Source: Bacteroidota bacterium
GTDB taxonomy: Bacteria > Bacteroidota > JABWAT01
Assembly (NCBI GenBank): GCA_023151185.1
Contig: JAKLJL010000001.1
Span: 1 to 64,000 of the forward strand
Reading direction: 5' to 3'
Length of the DNA: 64,000 bases
Position numbers and translations under genes: made by a program. The stretch's first letter is position 1; every line of letters begins with the position of its first letter. The notes beneath the pieces were generated by a model. The model saw only the letters and a list, made by a program, of their open reading frames with translations, had not been told where the DNA came from and searched no databases. This document shows, piece by piece, positions 21,962 to 61,952 of this stretch.

Positions 21962-22046
21962 TTTCCTGTTACAGTGAGTGACCTGACTCCGGTTCTGTTT
22001 TTTTGATTTTTGCTAACCAGCCACGGCCATTGTCACAAAATTTGGG

Positions 22047-22115
22047 GTCAGAAGTCAGAAGTCAGAAAACAGAAGACAGAAGACAGAAGTCAGAAGACAG
22101 GAGACAGGAGACAAC
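22047..22115 (+). repeat. Degenerate heptamer tandem repeat (GTCAGAA/GACAGAA)
   Basis: About nine copies of a seven-base unit alternate between GTCAGAA, GACAGAA and, at the end, GACAGGA. The gene-free stretch 21878-22297 holds the desaturase terminator, this repeat and a small inverted repeat at 22170-22185; otherwise I see nothing in it. Confidence 0.85.
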
Positions 22116-38100: not shown

Positions 38101-38663
38101 AGATGACCTACAACGGCGGCGGACAGTGGTCGATCAATATTGACTATACTGCCGATGCTATCATCAGCCAGGAATTCAAACTCGGTATCGGCGGTGCTGA
38201 TAACGAAGCCGGCTTTGGTAACAACCACATGGCTAACCTGTTCCCGACTGCAACCAACAATACCAAGGTTCAGTTTGGTGATATCCAGCCTTCACGGTAC
38301 AAAGTAGATGATAACAACTACTGGAACTTTACTGAAGAACAAGGATATAAAAACGGTCAGGTTATTGATCTTACCATTGGTGTTGAAACTGAGAAAGTTG
38401 CCAAGTTTGATCTTCTCCAAAACTATCCGAACCCATTCAACCCATCTACAATGATTCCGTTCACTGTAGCTGCTGCCGGTAAAGTAGACTTCAAAGTTTA
38501 CAATATCATGGGTCAGGAAGTTTCTGCCTTCAGCTTTACTGCTACCGCAGCCGGTCGTCATGAAGTTAGTTTCAAAGCCGATAATCTGGCTTCCGGAACT
38601 TACCTCGTGAAAATGACTGCTGGTTCCAGCACGAAGACCATTAAAATGGTATTCATGAAGTAA
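35169..38663 (+). CDS. Large secreted protein: BNR-like N-terminus, CBM-like modules, T9SS sorting domain
   Basis: A 1164-residue secreted protein with signal peptide MKQCVGLLIFLLVAAGAFA. Residues 40-510 contain BNR-like repeats such as VHLSTDQGATWG and LWKSSDKGAT, which suggests a sialidase-like beta-propeller, but I do not see the catalytic set of a sialidase. Residues about 515-760 are the module shared with the upstream gene, including VTVRGSFNGWSAADTLKP. A further two domains follow, then a type A sorting domain: LLQNYPNPFNPSTMIPF, VDFKVYNIMGQEV and GTYLVKMTAG, ending IKMVFMK. Codons are less CCGG-rich than in neighbours. It lies 20 bases after its paralogue; a strong terminator follows. 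Confidence 0.85.
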   Translation: MKQCVGLLIFLLVAAGAFAGNNQKAVARLDKGETTDVVSTSIRAKVNESVLIGNSANAYAWQAAGTNQIFYDAASGTIAVIKRRGTLDTAIPSGSGRIVVHLSTDQGATWGAGLQINGELAPEVFGRHPNVAILPSGELISQWAELYPMGAGFQAIGIAAHKLSDGSVVTAPWIDEEIIEEVDDIAGNDSIPYGVPDEIFVDEKNNTFYFGGGADNAVTNSIYLWKSSDKGATKQLVKLWKDAEYGGFSAGVNPTHGDFVGDNGNYIASVKPDSAWAVNNGFDYSMYYPYVVRFKNGAIVEEGWVDVDDVFASADIDSWTYEWDMVTDIKGNWHMFIQGYKDAGTTAENLAIYEVFSNTPGLSDISIKKVADISLLSLDYGSDALTTLADIHVSRDTEGKYVFVKYLDWDPLDAPETSTEGFVTGRAISSDSYAEPIAIHDNDAAVQMFTQAANLATAKGDGDAAGTKKFQLHTSWVEYGIAGGVPAGTAAANVYYVGPTLDVAEYTGGVVPTEAKLGFVINTAFVGDTLTAGSSVSIRGAAFGGDWSLDKGIKFTNIGGDYWYAEKTVPTGKSGGGFKIVTSTASGTGWDRHMVGEFDVTGDDVYGFYTTGLKETYTDPFTGAEITRGDDWDPLEIAKNGNADVYAVHFRVNMQQADVNGGFNPETQKVTVRGSFNGWSAADTLKPETRHDDMCCGLGTYEAENFYSKTILIPKASAGGQAYKFVYSDAATTTWEEKTGGNRTFTLSDDTTLYWKWFDNDTLTTGPQGAVPFEVSFKVNMAKAINTNGFDKSTDTLIARIGFLGTGEKTVDAKLSAPLLGTTFTGKTGVDSLKAAKGSTVLYQYYKKNAAGEFEEFYFDNFNTLPQSAAPKFRKVLAPETGSTISTEDLVNDNVSTHRQPFFKNTAKVGVATTLTLEVNLLPAHLVTTALGGSLNDIQGGSLVVDANNIRSLDLYVNGPATGSWGPWNALGLGDTRKMTYNGGGQWSINIDYTADAIISQEFKLGIGGADNEAGFGNNHMANLFPTATNNTKVQFGDIQPSRYKVDDNNYWNFTEEQGYKNGQVIDLTIGVETEKVAKFDLLQNYPNPFNPSTMIPFTVAAAGKVDFKVYNIMGQEVSAFSFTATAAGRHEVSFKADNLASGTYLVKMTAGSSTKTIKMVFMK
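36713..37438 (+). repeat. Near-identical coding module, copy 2
   Basis: Second copy of the module at 33217-33940, in frame with it. It encodes the same two beta-sandwich domains in the middle of the larger protein. Confidence 0.85.
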
Positions 38664-58455: not shown

Positions 58456-58474
58456 CAATTCTACCGCTGATGCG

Positions 58475-58535
58475 CTCCCAAGCAACTTCGTTGCGCGGGT
58501 CTAAGGAAAGAACGCAGAGCGGTGGGAGTTTTTTT
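58475..58535 (+). terminator. Complex hairpin terminator of the T9SS gene
   Basis: CTCCCA (58475) and TGGGAG (58523) can pair, and a T-run of seven follows. Between them lies a small hairpin, GCAAC-ttc-GTTGC. ACCGCT at 58463 and AGCGGT at 58518 could form a competing stem. Confidence 0.6.
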
Positions 58536-58540
58536 AATTT

Positions 58541-58590
58541 GAATTTCGTAGAGACGTCCCACTGGGGCGTCTCTGAATTTTATGAAATTC
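58541..58590. repeat. Palindromic element with AGAGACGtCCC stem
   Basis: AGAGACGTCCC (58550-58560) pairs with GGGGCGTCTCT (58564-58574) around a three-base loop with one wobble pair. GAATTTC and GAAATTC flank it as an outer inverted repeat. This is the shape of dispersed intergenic palindromes. The 687-base gap 58456-59142 contains this, the next elements and the blaI promoter but no credible gene. Confidence 0.7.
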
Positions 58591-58600
58591 GATTTTTGTA

Positions 58601-58626
58601 GGGGCGACCGGCTGGTCGCCCTTTTT
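58601..58626 (+). repeat. GGGCGACC/GGTCGCCC hairpin with T-run
   Basis: GGGCGACC (58602-58609) and GGTCGCCC (58614-58621) form a perfect eight-base stem with a four-base loop, followed by TTTTT. It could be a second terminator or a mobile palindrome. Confidence 0.7.
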
Positions 58627-58679
58627 GTTGAAATTAGGAGTCATTCGTAAAAATCCGGCCGTTTTATCCTTCGATACAA

Positions 58680-58698
58680 TTTTTTGCAAAGCAAAAAA
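58680..58698. repeat. TTTTTTGC/GCAAAAAA inverted repeat
   Basis: Eight-base arms around AAA, embedded in the phrase TTCGATACAAT...CACTCAGGATGACA. A third small hairpin, CCGTC...GACGG, lies at 58779-58798. Confidence 0.55.
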
Positions 58699-59082
58699 TC
58701 ACTCAGGATGACAATTTAGAAGGACAATTCAATTTGCCTTTTTGGGTTAAAACCCATATCTGTTAAGATGTAAAGTTTCCGTCAGCTAAAGCAGACGGCA
58801 ATAAATTATTTGCCATTTACCATCCCGAAAGTGTTTCCAAGCTTCGCCGGATCCGCGGTTCGTAAATGAACCTTGGACGGGATCTTCGCTTCGCTCGATT
58901 TACCCTTTCGCCATAGGCATTTTCCCTTTTCTGTTTATTCTGTTACTTCTTTTAACCCGTGTCATGAAATGATTTGGGTGGGGTTAAAAATCTCCCGTGT
59001 TTTTTTGTATTTATCAGCCTTTCTCGTACCCTGTATAACGTACCCCGTTTCCCCTCTTTTCAAAAAAATAATTCACCTTCTC

Positions 59083-59113
59083 TTGACAACCTACTAATAT
59101 AGTAGTATTATTG
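59083..59113 (+). promoter_or_regulatory. blaI promoter with dyad operator in the spacer
   Basis: TTGACA (59083-59088) and TATTAT (59106-59111) are 17 bases apart; the same bases also read TTG-N20-TATTATTG, close to the Bacteroidota pattern. The spacer contains CTACTA-ATA-TAGTAG (59091-59105), a dyad like BlaI/MecI operators. Binding there would block RNA polymerase, so BlaI most likely represses its own operon. The promoter lies 30 bases before the blaI ATG. Confidence 0.75.
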
Positions 59114-59142
59114 TTATAGTTGCTGATTTGCCAGAGGTTAGT

Positions 59143-59520
59143 ATGAAGCAGAAGCGGTCCGTCTCCGGTTTGGGAGAAACTGAAATGGAAATTATGAATC
59201 ACCTGTGGGATCTCGGATCCGGAACGGTGGCTGATGTTCATTCCCGGATAAACGGGTACCGGAAGGTTGCCTACACCACCATCATGACAGTTTTAAAGAA
59301 ACTGGCTGATAAAAATATGCTCCGTATTGAAAAAGAAGGGCTGACTTACCGGTACTTTCCGGTCCGGTCAGAAGCCGAAGTAAAAAGTGAACTTGCTGAC
59401 TCCTTCGTCTCGAGTGTTTTCCAGAATTCACCGGTTCAACTGGTGCAAACGCTGGTGAAAAAAGAAAAATTAACTGAATCCGAAATTGAAGAAATTAAAA
59501 AACTGATTGAGAATCTCTGA
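59143..59520 (+). CDS. blaI: BlaI/MecI/CopY-family repressor
   Basis: The ATG at 59143 is chosen over an in-frame TTG at 59128, giving 125 residues, normal for the family. The winged helix contains LGETEMEIMNHLWDLGSGTVADVHS and YTTIMTVLKKLADKNMLRIEKEGLTYRYFPV. The C-terminal half provides the dimerisation region and ends EEIKKLIENL. It represses its own operon through the dyad at 59091-59105. Its stop overlaps the M56 gene by one base, so repressor and sensor are translated together. No beta-lactamase is near, so the signal is something else. Confidence 0.93.
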   Translation: MKQKRSVSGLGETEMEIMNHLWDLGSGTVADVHSRINGYRKVAYTTIMTVLKKLADKNMLRIEKEGLTYRYFPVRSEAEVKSELADSFVSSVFQNSPVQLVQTLVKKEKLTESEIEEIKKLIENL

Positions 59521-61535
59521 TGAACGGATTCCAACTTATAGACCCGGGTCTTTCATTATTTGAAAACCTGTTTTTACCCACACTTGCCTGGTCAGTCGTT
59601 GTTGGGTTCGTTTTTCTTTTCATTCATTTTTTATTCACGGAAAACCCCGGATTCCAGACGCAGATCCGCATTTTACTGCTCTGGACGTTACCTGCAGCCA
59701 TTTTTATCAATTTTATTCTGAACACGCAGTTTGTTCAGTCAAAACCCGATTTTATTGTTATTCCCGACAACATTTTAATATTAAATACTGATACTATAGA
59801 ACCCGTTCCGGCAGAAATCGCTGAAGCATCTCCGGATATTTACGAACAAATCAAGGCACTCACCGGATGGATATCCGGACTGACTATTCTGATTGGATTC
59901 TCCTATTTCACCGGATATTTATTGCTCTTTCACCGTTTGGCGAGATACCATCAGTACCTGATTTTAATCCCCGAAAATGAAGTCATTAAACTGATTTTGC
60001 TTGAAAATGATTTAATTTCCAAAGTCACGGTTTATCAATCAAACGGATTTGTGACTCCGTTTACCTTTGGGTTTTCACATCCCAAAATTATAATCCCCGA
60101 AAAATATTGTTCAGATCCTGTTCAGTTTCAGTTGATTCTCCGTCATGAGGTTTCTCACATCCGGAATCACGATTACCTGAAACAAATGGGAGAACAAGCG
60201 CTCAAGTTTCTTTTCTTCTGGAATCCGCTTCTGCATCTGTTAACCCGGCAAATCAGCAACTACCGGGAAATGGCGTGCGACGAACAGGTTCTGTCTGTCT
60301 GCCCTGACTGGAAAAAGGAGTATGCAACCCTGCTGCTCACTCACCTTTTAGAACCGGCAGCCTCAACCGGAGTGGCGGCAGCTATGTCTCACTCAACTGA
60401 GAATCTAAAGGAAAGGATATCCAAAATGAAAACGTATCAGACAATAAAGGAAAATAAAATCGCCACCGGAGTTCTGGCAGGCGTTATAACCGCTTTTTCA
60501 GTCACTTTCATCCTGCTGATTTCAAATGCCAAATTGGAGGCAGTGGAAGCCGGAAACTCACAGTCGGCAGTCGCATCAAAACCGGATTCGCTGAACCGTG
60601 ATTACCCCGAATTGGTAGGGGGACTTGATGCTTTGGCCGGCATACAAAAGAAAATCACTTATCCGGAATTTGCCTCCAGAAAGGGGATCCAGGGAATGGT
60701 GGTGTTGTCACTGAAGGTATCTGAAAAAGGAGAAATTGAGGATATTTCGGTGGCAAAATCAACGGGATCAGCCTCTCTGGATGCACAGGCTGTTGTTGCA
60801 GCGCAGGAGTTAAGGTTCAAACCGGCACTTAAGGACGGGAAAGCGGTAACGGCTTCTGTACAGCTTCCGGTTCAGTTTAAACTTGATTCAGGAAAAAAGC
60901 AGGAAGATCCGTTGGAGACTGACGGACCGGCGATTGAAGGCGGTATGAGTGCTTTGCTGAAAAATCTGGTTTACCCGGAAGAAGCTTTTAAAAAAGGAAT
61001 TGAAGGAACAGTTCTTGTTGGAGTGTATATTTCAGAAACCGGCGACCCGATGAATACCGAAATAGAAAAATCGGTTCATCCTTTGTTGGACAGGGCGGCA
61101 CAGGATGCGGTTTTTAAAGTAAAATTTATCCCCGGCAGAGAAGATGGAAAACCAGTTTCCCAGAAAGTGACCATTCCGTTTAAATTTAAAATTCCTGATA
61201 ATCCGAAATCAGGTAATTATGATGGAAATTTACCCGAGATGGGGCACATTGAAATTGAAGGTGGTTTCCCTGAATTGTACCGAAATCTGGTTTATCCGCC
61301 TTCAGCTAAGGCAAAAGGGATTCAGGGCAAAGCCATTGTGGAGGTTTCATATTCAGAGTCGGGTGAGATTTTATCTGTTTCAATAAAAGCCTCTTCCGGA
61401 AATACCGAACTGGATCAGGCGGCCATTGAAGCGGTTAAAAAAACAAAATTGAAAATTACACCGGATCCGGACGGAAAAACTCATTCCGGCAGATATGGTT
61501 TTCCTGTTGAATTTAAATTGACGTTGAATCACTAA
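59520..61535 (+). CDS. BlaR1-type M56 metallopeptidase with three TonB C-terminal domains
   Basis: A 671-residue membrane protein. Four membrane helices (about residues 18-40, 48-66, 113-137 and 313-337) surround an M56 peptidase with HEVSH at residues 209-213 and the downstream ligand region REMACDEQ. Beyond the last helix there is no penicillin-binding domain; instead three TonB C-terminal domains follow, beginning at VGGLDAL (about 363), EGGMSAL (about 475) and EGGFPEL (about 580), each with a GIxG core and a conserved YP. M56 proteins cleave the BlaI partner when a signal is sensed. Here the sensor is presumably the TonB-like repeat. Confidence 0.92.
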   Translation: MNGFQLIDPGLSLFENLFLPTLAWSVVVGFVFLFIHFLFTENPGFQTQIRILLLWTLPAAIFINFILNTQFVQSKPDFIVIPDNILILNTDTIEPVPAEIAEASPDIYEQIKALTGWISGLTILIGFSYFTGYLLLFHRLARYHQYLILIPENEVIKLILLENDLISKVTVYQSNGFVTPFTFGFSHPKIIIPEKYCSDPVQFQLILRHEVSHIRNHDYLKQMGEQALKFLFFWNPLLHLLTRQISNYREMACDEQVLSVCPDWKKEYATLLLTHLLEPAASTGVAAAMSHSTENLKERISKMKTYQTIKENKIATGVLAGVITAFSVTFILLISNAKLEAVEAGNSQSAVASKPDSLNRDYPELVGGLDALAGIQKKITYPEFASRKGIQGMVVLSLKVSEKGEIEDISVAKSTGSASLDAQAVVAAQELRFKPALKDGKAVTASVQLPVQFKLDSGKKQEDPLETDGPAIEGGMSALLKNLVYPEEAFKKGIEGTVLVGVYISETGDPMNTEIEKSVHPLLDRAAQDAVFKVKFIPGREDGKPVSQKVTIPFKFKIPDNPKSGNYDGNLPEMGHIEIEGGFPELYRNLVYPPSAKAKGIQGKAIVEVSYSESGEILSVSIKASSGNTELDQAAIEAVKKTKLKITPDPDGKTHSGRYGFPVEFKLTLNH

Positions 61536-61556
61536 GCAGAAAGCAAGGAAATTAAA

Positions 61557-61952
61557 ATGTTGCATCCTATTCTATCACTTCTTACAACCCTGTTTTTATC
61601 TTTTATCTGGGTTCCTCTCCAAACAGGATTACCATCTGAAGGTAAGGTAAATGTACTGACAGTTACCTCGACCGATTCTTTAAATAAAAATATTCCGTTC
61701 ACCTATGTTTATTCAATGGGAAATAAAAAAGGTGTTCAGTCCATTACAACGACTGAACAGGTAACACCATTTCGGTTTGATATTGCAGATACTTTTTTTA
61801 CCGCATTGATCCAGGATAAGTCATTAGCGGGGCGGATAGAAGTTAAAATTTTAACCTACAGAGATGGAAAGAATACCAGCGTAACAAAGTGCAACTTTCC
61901 TCTTAATGTTATCCAGATTTCAGCCGAAGAAATCAAAGTCTCCGGAAACTGA
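61557..61952 (+). CDS. Small secreted protein after the M56 gene, unknown
   Basis: A 131-residue protein with signal peptide MLHPILSLLTTLFLSFIWVPLQ. The mature chain of about 110 residues looks like a small all-beta domain: KVNVLTVTSTDSL, IPFTYVYSMGNKKGVQSITT and GRIEVKILTYRDGKNTSVT. I recognise no family. It is 21 bases after the M56-TonB gene and likely belongs to the same BlaI-controlled operon. It may be periplasmic and could interact with the TonB-like domains; that is inference. Confidence 0.65.
   Translation: MLHPILSLLTTLFLSFIWVPLQTGLPSEGKVNVLTVTSTDSLNKNIPFTYVYSMGNKKGVQSITTTEQVTPFRFDIADTFFTALIQDKSLAGRIEVKILTYRDGKNTSVTKCNFPLNVIQISAEEIKVSGN

Follow-up and report, generated by a model that had tools for sequence, protein, structure and literature searches.

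A BlaI repressor paired with an M56 peptidase that carries three tandem TonB C-terminal domains in a Bacteroidota bacterium

The DNA analyzed here (the window: 64,000 nucleotides, positions 1 to 64,000 of contig JAKLJL010000001.1, assembly GCA_023151185.1, from a Bacteroidota bacterium) carries at 59083-61535 a promoter whose spacer contains a BlaI-type dyad, a BlaI gene (blaI) and an M56 metallopeptidase gene (m56) whose 671-aa product (59520-61535) contains three TonB C-terminal (TonB_C) domains (Table 1). The stop of blaI and the start of m56 share one base (TGATG at 59520), and the adjacency of the two genes with a dyad operator at the promoter is that of BlaI/M56 antirepressor pairs in general. 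The conserved start of blaI is ATG 59143 rather than TTG 59128. Pfam profiles for Penicillinase_R (PF03965), Peptidase_M56 (PF05569) and three TonB_C domains (PF03544, E = 1.3e-58) each scored above cut-off, and NCBIfam agreed on the families, although most of its scores fell short of its equivalog cut-offs. These matches bear out the original prediction of a BlaI and M56 peptidase pair with TonB_C domains at the position of the penicillin sensor.

Table 1. Positions of the features at the locus (window coordinates)
Feature	Position	Strand	Basis or remark
Promoter TTGACA-N17-TATTAT	59083..59111	+	11/12 consensus positions matched; begins at 59083, first base of the finding
Mosaic tract	59086..60530 (end approximate)	+	About 94% nucleotide identity to G001/G002; much more diverged flanks
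BlaI-type operator CTACTAATATAGTAG	59091..59105	+	Within the 17-bp -35/-10 spacer; family-type dyad (predicted)
BlaI/MecI-family repressor, 125 aa	59143..59520	+	PF03965 E 3.9e-31; aligns with MecI 1sd6 and BlaI 1sd4
M56 protease core: N-terminal TM helices, zinc site HEVSH (aa 209-213) and E250	59520..60494	+	PF05569 E 2.3e-29; invariant residues; Foldseek to BlaR1 8exp
TM4, aa 313-334, ends ...FILLISNAK	60456..60521	+	Without lipobox Cys, unlike most relatives
TonB_C repeat 1	60651..60884	+	Conserved across family
TonB_C repeat 2	60963..61193	+	74% identical to G002 repeat 3
TonB_C repeat 3	61284..61520	+	Congeners without close counterpart
131-aa orphan ORF, N-terminal hydrophobic segment/helix	61557..61952	+	Possibly third gene of transcript; not conserved

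The peptidase, encoded by the only M56 gene in genome G000, has zinc-site residues (H209, E210, H213 and E250) that are invariant in a 34-sequence alignment. An AlphaFold2 model of the whole protein (mean pLDDT 82) combines a BlaR1-like protease, matched by Foldseek to 8exp (E = 1e-6), with three TonB-type folds, and a sequence-profile search of the PDB returned the same two families as Foldseek, BlaR1 and TonB C-terminal domains. With BlaR1-BlaI and MecR1-MecI of S. aureus (8exp, 1sd4, 1sd6), the locus shares a BlaI-type repressor and an M56 membrane zinc protease with HExxH, whose TM4 leads to an extracytoplasmic C-terminal domain; it differs in that a TonB_C array replaces the class-D-like penicillin sensor and that the Asn-Phe pair cleaved in MecI aligns with Thr-Leu in the window BlaI. 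Nor is the position of BlaR1 F284 conserved. At the MecI cut site, where MecI reads LVLNFVE, the surveyed BlaI proteins strongly conserve LVQTLVK. The presence of the M56 and BlaI families would suit an ordinary beta-lactam response; we judge this reading very improbable, given that Pfam and NCBIfam detect no penicillin-binding sensor domain in the M56 protein and that no beta-lactamase or PBP2a gene was found among the genes tested in 42-64 kb of the window. By the tests made, the window system is BlaR1-BlaI-like in layout and does not appear to be a beta-lactam sensor.

Each of the three repeats is modeled as beta-beta-alpha-beta at a pLDDT of about 90-95, and their Foldseek matches are TonB C-terminal domains (5lw8, 6i97 and 1xx3), with BtuB:TonB (2gsk) and FhuA:TonB (2grx) also among them; the TonB fold proposed for the repeats, for which structure prediction had been named as the check, is thus confirmed. 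The repeats share this fold with the C-terminal domain of the TonB energy transducer (2gsk, 6i97), from which the window protein otherwise differs: it has the protease core in place of an N-terminal TonB anchor, it lacks a proline-rich spacer, its TonB_C domains come in tandem, and there is no adjacent ExbB/ExbD (none among the genes tested in 42-64 kb, as originally noted). In a tree of the repeats, the repeat 1 sequences of the whole family group in a supported clade, and window repeat 2 pairs with repeat 3 of congener G002 (support 86/92, below the star threshold). Beta-strand addition is how TonB C-terminal domains engage their partners, and through it the array could, as a DegS-like detector, catch the exposed beta strands of outer-membrane proteins that have misfolded or stalled; no chaperone or protease gene is linked to the locus, and we consider such a detector quite improbable.

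Genome G000 holds 3 BlaI-family matches and 11 TonB_C matches, 3 of the latter in the M56 gene, and TonB_C is used there outside classical TonB. Two of its proteins (L007 and L010, on C20 and C11) start with a hydrophobic segment, carry a CarboxypepD_reg domain and end in TonB_C, and the N-terminal sequences of three others (L008, L012 and L013) resemble these two.

The 13-bp operator core TACTANNNTAGTA is conserved at the same promoter position in G001, G002 and G003. In an exact-pattern scan, it occurs once in the 3.74-Mb genome G000, once each in G001 and G003 and twice in G002, with one copy at the blaI promoter in every case, against 10-17 matches per genome for a reversed control pattern in the same four genomes; the extra G002 copy lies inside an ORF. 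A looser scan that allowed 3 mismatches gave 15 strand matches, below its own control. A wider regulon defined by the exact dyad was accordingly rejected, the four genomes containing none outside the blaI promoter save the in-ORF site, and the wider stress regulon that had been suggested, with a dyad search as its check, is so far unsupported. Because the exact dyad is rare and because no further co-directional gene follows m56 in G001 and G002 (an antisense ABC ATPase comes next), the clearest BlaI target, as judged by the exact dyad, appears to be its own operon.

This bears on the reading first offered for the locus, in which the array senses envelope or nutrient state by reading whether TonB-dependent transporters are free or loaded, and a distant regulon is turned on once BlaI is cleaved. 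The confirmed fold of the repeats speaks for it, as do the 19 TBDT plug domains in genome G000 and a BlaI-family gene adjoining an M56 gene in P. gingivalis that is lower in excess hemin (log2 -1.74; PMC10470040), a likeness at the level of the BlaI and M56 families. However, in three of the four genomes the operon's own promoter is the sole site of the exact dyad, and a post-TM4 linker of only about 40 aa that is not rich in proline makes it uncertain whether the array reaches the outer membrane; we regard a transporter sensor as unlikely.

The ORF at 61557-61952 exists as reported, with a Shine-Dalgarno-like AAGGAA upstream and coding-like codon use, and it may be co-transcribed with blaI-m56. 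Its product had been proposed as a small secreted ligand or inhibitor, an idea that is unsupported because the protein is an orphan: it has no family match in Pfam or NCBIfam, no homologue at the locus in congeners G001 and G002 and only marginal matches in 99 related genomes (best E = 0.002). A single-sequence structure model of it is poor (pLDDT 46). A secreted partner was thus rejected as a conserved component, and this protein should not be built into the mechanism.

Comparison with the two congeners reveals that the operator, BlaI and the protease core are about 94% identical to theirs, versus 64-81% for neighboring genes over 40 kb with short repeats set apart. Past TM4, DNA identity drops to roughly 48-60%, with a partly conserved patch inside TonB_C repeat 1. 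An ultra-conserved core maintained by selection alone is disfavored because 4-fold degenerate sites, too, are far more identical to the congeners in BlaI and the core (81-87%) than in the linker and first TonB_C domain (45-51%) or in the neighboring ABC ATPase (45-47%). The window species and its congeners have the same gene order in this region, so the simplest reading would be that either the operator-BlaI-core tract was exchanged within the genus or the array was replaced, the break lying just past TM4. The array would then be a fast-changing sensor within a mosaic, and the number of TonB_C domains is 2, 3 or 4 within one genus.

Short repeats also occur in the window. In the intergenic stretch 58457-59007, which adjoins the operator, pieces of 50-120 bp match dozens of sites in G001 and G002 at 80-96% identity and appear to belong to a dispersed repeat family of the genus, and the window at 22039-22113 and 38399-38530 contains short pieces that recur many times in congener genomes.

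Beyond the genus, we surveyed Bacteroidota M56 loci with profiles built in-house (80 fetched regions plus the window). BlaI lies directly upstream in 79 of the 83 M56 genes, and at least one TonB_C, usually a single copy, is present at 41 of the 83 loci, fractions that are not population rates, as the sample was picked by M56 score. At least two copies occur in only 6 of those 41, four of them from the window family (2, 3, 4 and 2 copies), and Pfam scans of three relatives agree with the survey's domain calls. Pairing of BlaI with an M56-TonB_C protein is therefore widespread in the phylum, a breadth that the original prediction missed when it suggested searching for M56-3xTonB_C neighborhoods: the pairing is common, but three copies are unusual. 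Tandem TonB_C copies are a variable local feature. These Bacteroidota proteins (PF05569 plus PF03544) share with the window protein an M56 core, TM4, TonB_C and an upstream BlaI, whereas the window protein has three tandem TonB_C domains, no lipobox Cys after TM4 and a short linker. We found no paper on M56-TonB_C among those searched, and the window system is a variant, with tandem repeats, of a kind that is widespread and, it seems, unstudied.

Other details vary among these loci. Among M56-TonB_C proteins of other families, L126 has a CarboxypepD_reg domain following TonB_C, and L147 has a tail that looks similar by eye. Genes of ~284 aa and ~60 aa recur downstream of many M56-TonB_C loci of family f16; as they are missing at the window locus, these recurrences were taken as lineage synteny, and a shared downstream gene across M56-TonB_C loci was rejected.

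TM4 ends in an [AGS]-C lipobox in 42 of the 53 TonB_C-bearing M56 proteins, spread over nine families; the families are not independent samples, with 25 of the 42 proteins belonging to f16. Every carrier of the Cys has A, S or G before it, and the residues after it are S/T in 41/42 and then D/E in 41/42. Among the remaining TM helices of these proteins, 2 of 146 fit the pattern, as do 12 of 74 M56 proteins without detected TonB_C. Examples at the TM4 end include L126, L168, L170, L187, L198 and L208, and some divergent M56 proteins also have a lipobox-like Cys (LILGCEPASN, LLPGCDSTTT). With K/R and a hydrophobic stretch before the [AGS]-C, the TM4 end looks like a Bacteroidota lipoprotein signal, which suggests that the TonB_C part might be released as a lipoprotein in relatives. 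The Cys is absent from the window protein, from G001-G003 of its family and from families f10, f29, f41 and f43. That most relatives carry a lipobox there likewise escaped the original prediction.

A tentative picture for the phylum, which we hold possible rather than probable, is that M56-TonB_C proteins are split products: TM4 would act as an internal lipoprotein signal, LspA would free the TonB_C part in lipoprotein form, with the BlaI/M56 half controlling its own supply. The window lineage would have lost the lipobox and would instead expand and swap TonB_C domains in tandem, attached to a core that undergoes recombination between species. More doubtful is a version that takes in the window protein as well. 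Here TM4 would serve as an internal signal peptide, and the TonB_C part would be cut off to act as a separate periplasmic effector whose supply the protease half sets; the cutting enzyme would be LspA in most relatives, with a lipoprotein as product, and in the window perhaps signal peptidase I, acting after SNA. The lipobox counts speak for this version, as do the non-classical TonB_C proteins of G000 that carry CarboxypepD_reg; against it, the Cys is missing from the window protein and the rest of its family, and the SNA site is weak evidence.

Weighing these alternatives, we lean, with about even confidence, toward blaI-m56 as a BlaI/M56 antirepressor pair that acts as a closed, self-adjusting loop. 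From its position and family, a BlaI dimer bound to the one dyad between -35 and -10 would block blaI-m56 transcription. The M56 protein would be a membrane zinc protease that faces the cytoplasm and is linked by TM4 to three TonB-type domains arrayed in the periplasm. Once the array is engaged there, most plausibly through beta-strand addition of a TonB-box-like peptide or another envelope peptide, TM4 would change, whereupon the protease would cut BlaI in its C-terminal LVQTLVK region and derepress the operon. Because the dyad occurs only here and the congener operon encodes nothing else, the main product adjusted would be the M56-TonB_C protein itself, and the array would probably be sensor and output at once. 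The array would also be exchangeable, core and array having different histories and copy number drifting from 2 to 4 within one genus. Several observations tell against the loop: the Asn-Phe pair and the BlaR1 F284 position are not conserved; in relatives, a lipobox would part the array from the protease, which fits badly with signaling through TM4; and the third ORF of the window could be an alternative output.

To our knowledge, nearly all that is known of BlaI/M56 pairs concerns beta-lactam sensing. The single-site operator would make the proposed loop easy to test, and nature supplies ready-made variants with 2, 3 and 4 TonB_C domains. The lipobox of relatives predicts a processing step that has apparently never been looked for in M56 proteins. 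More broadly, a phylum-wide TonB-type branch of these pairs, which the papers searched apparently do not describe, would add another proteolytic link from the periplasm to transcription.
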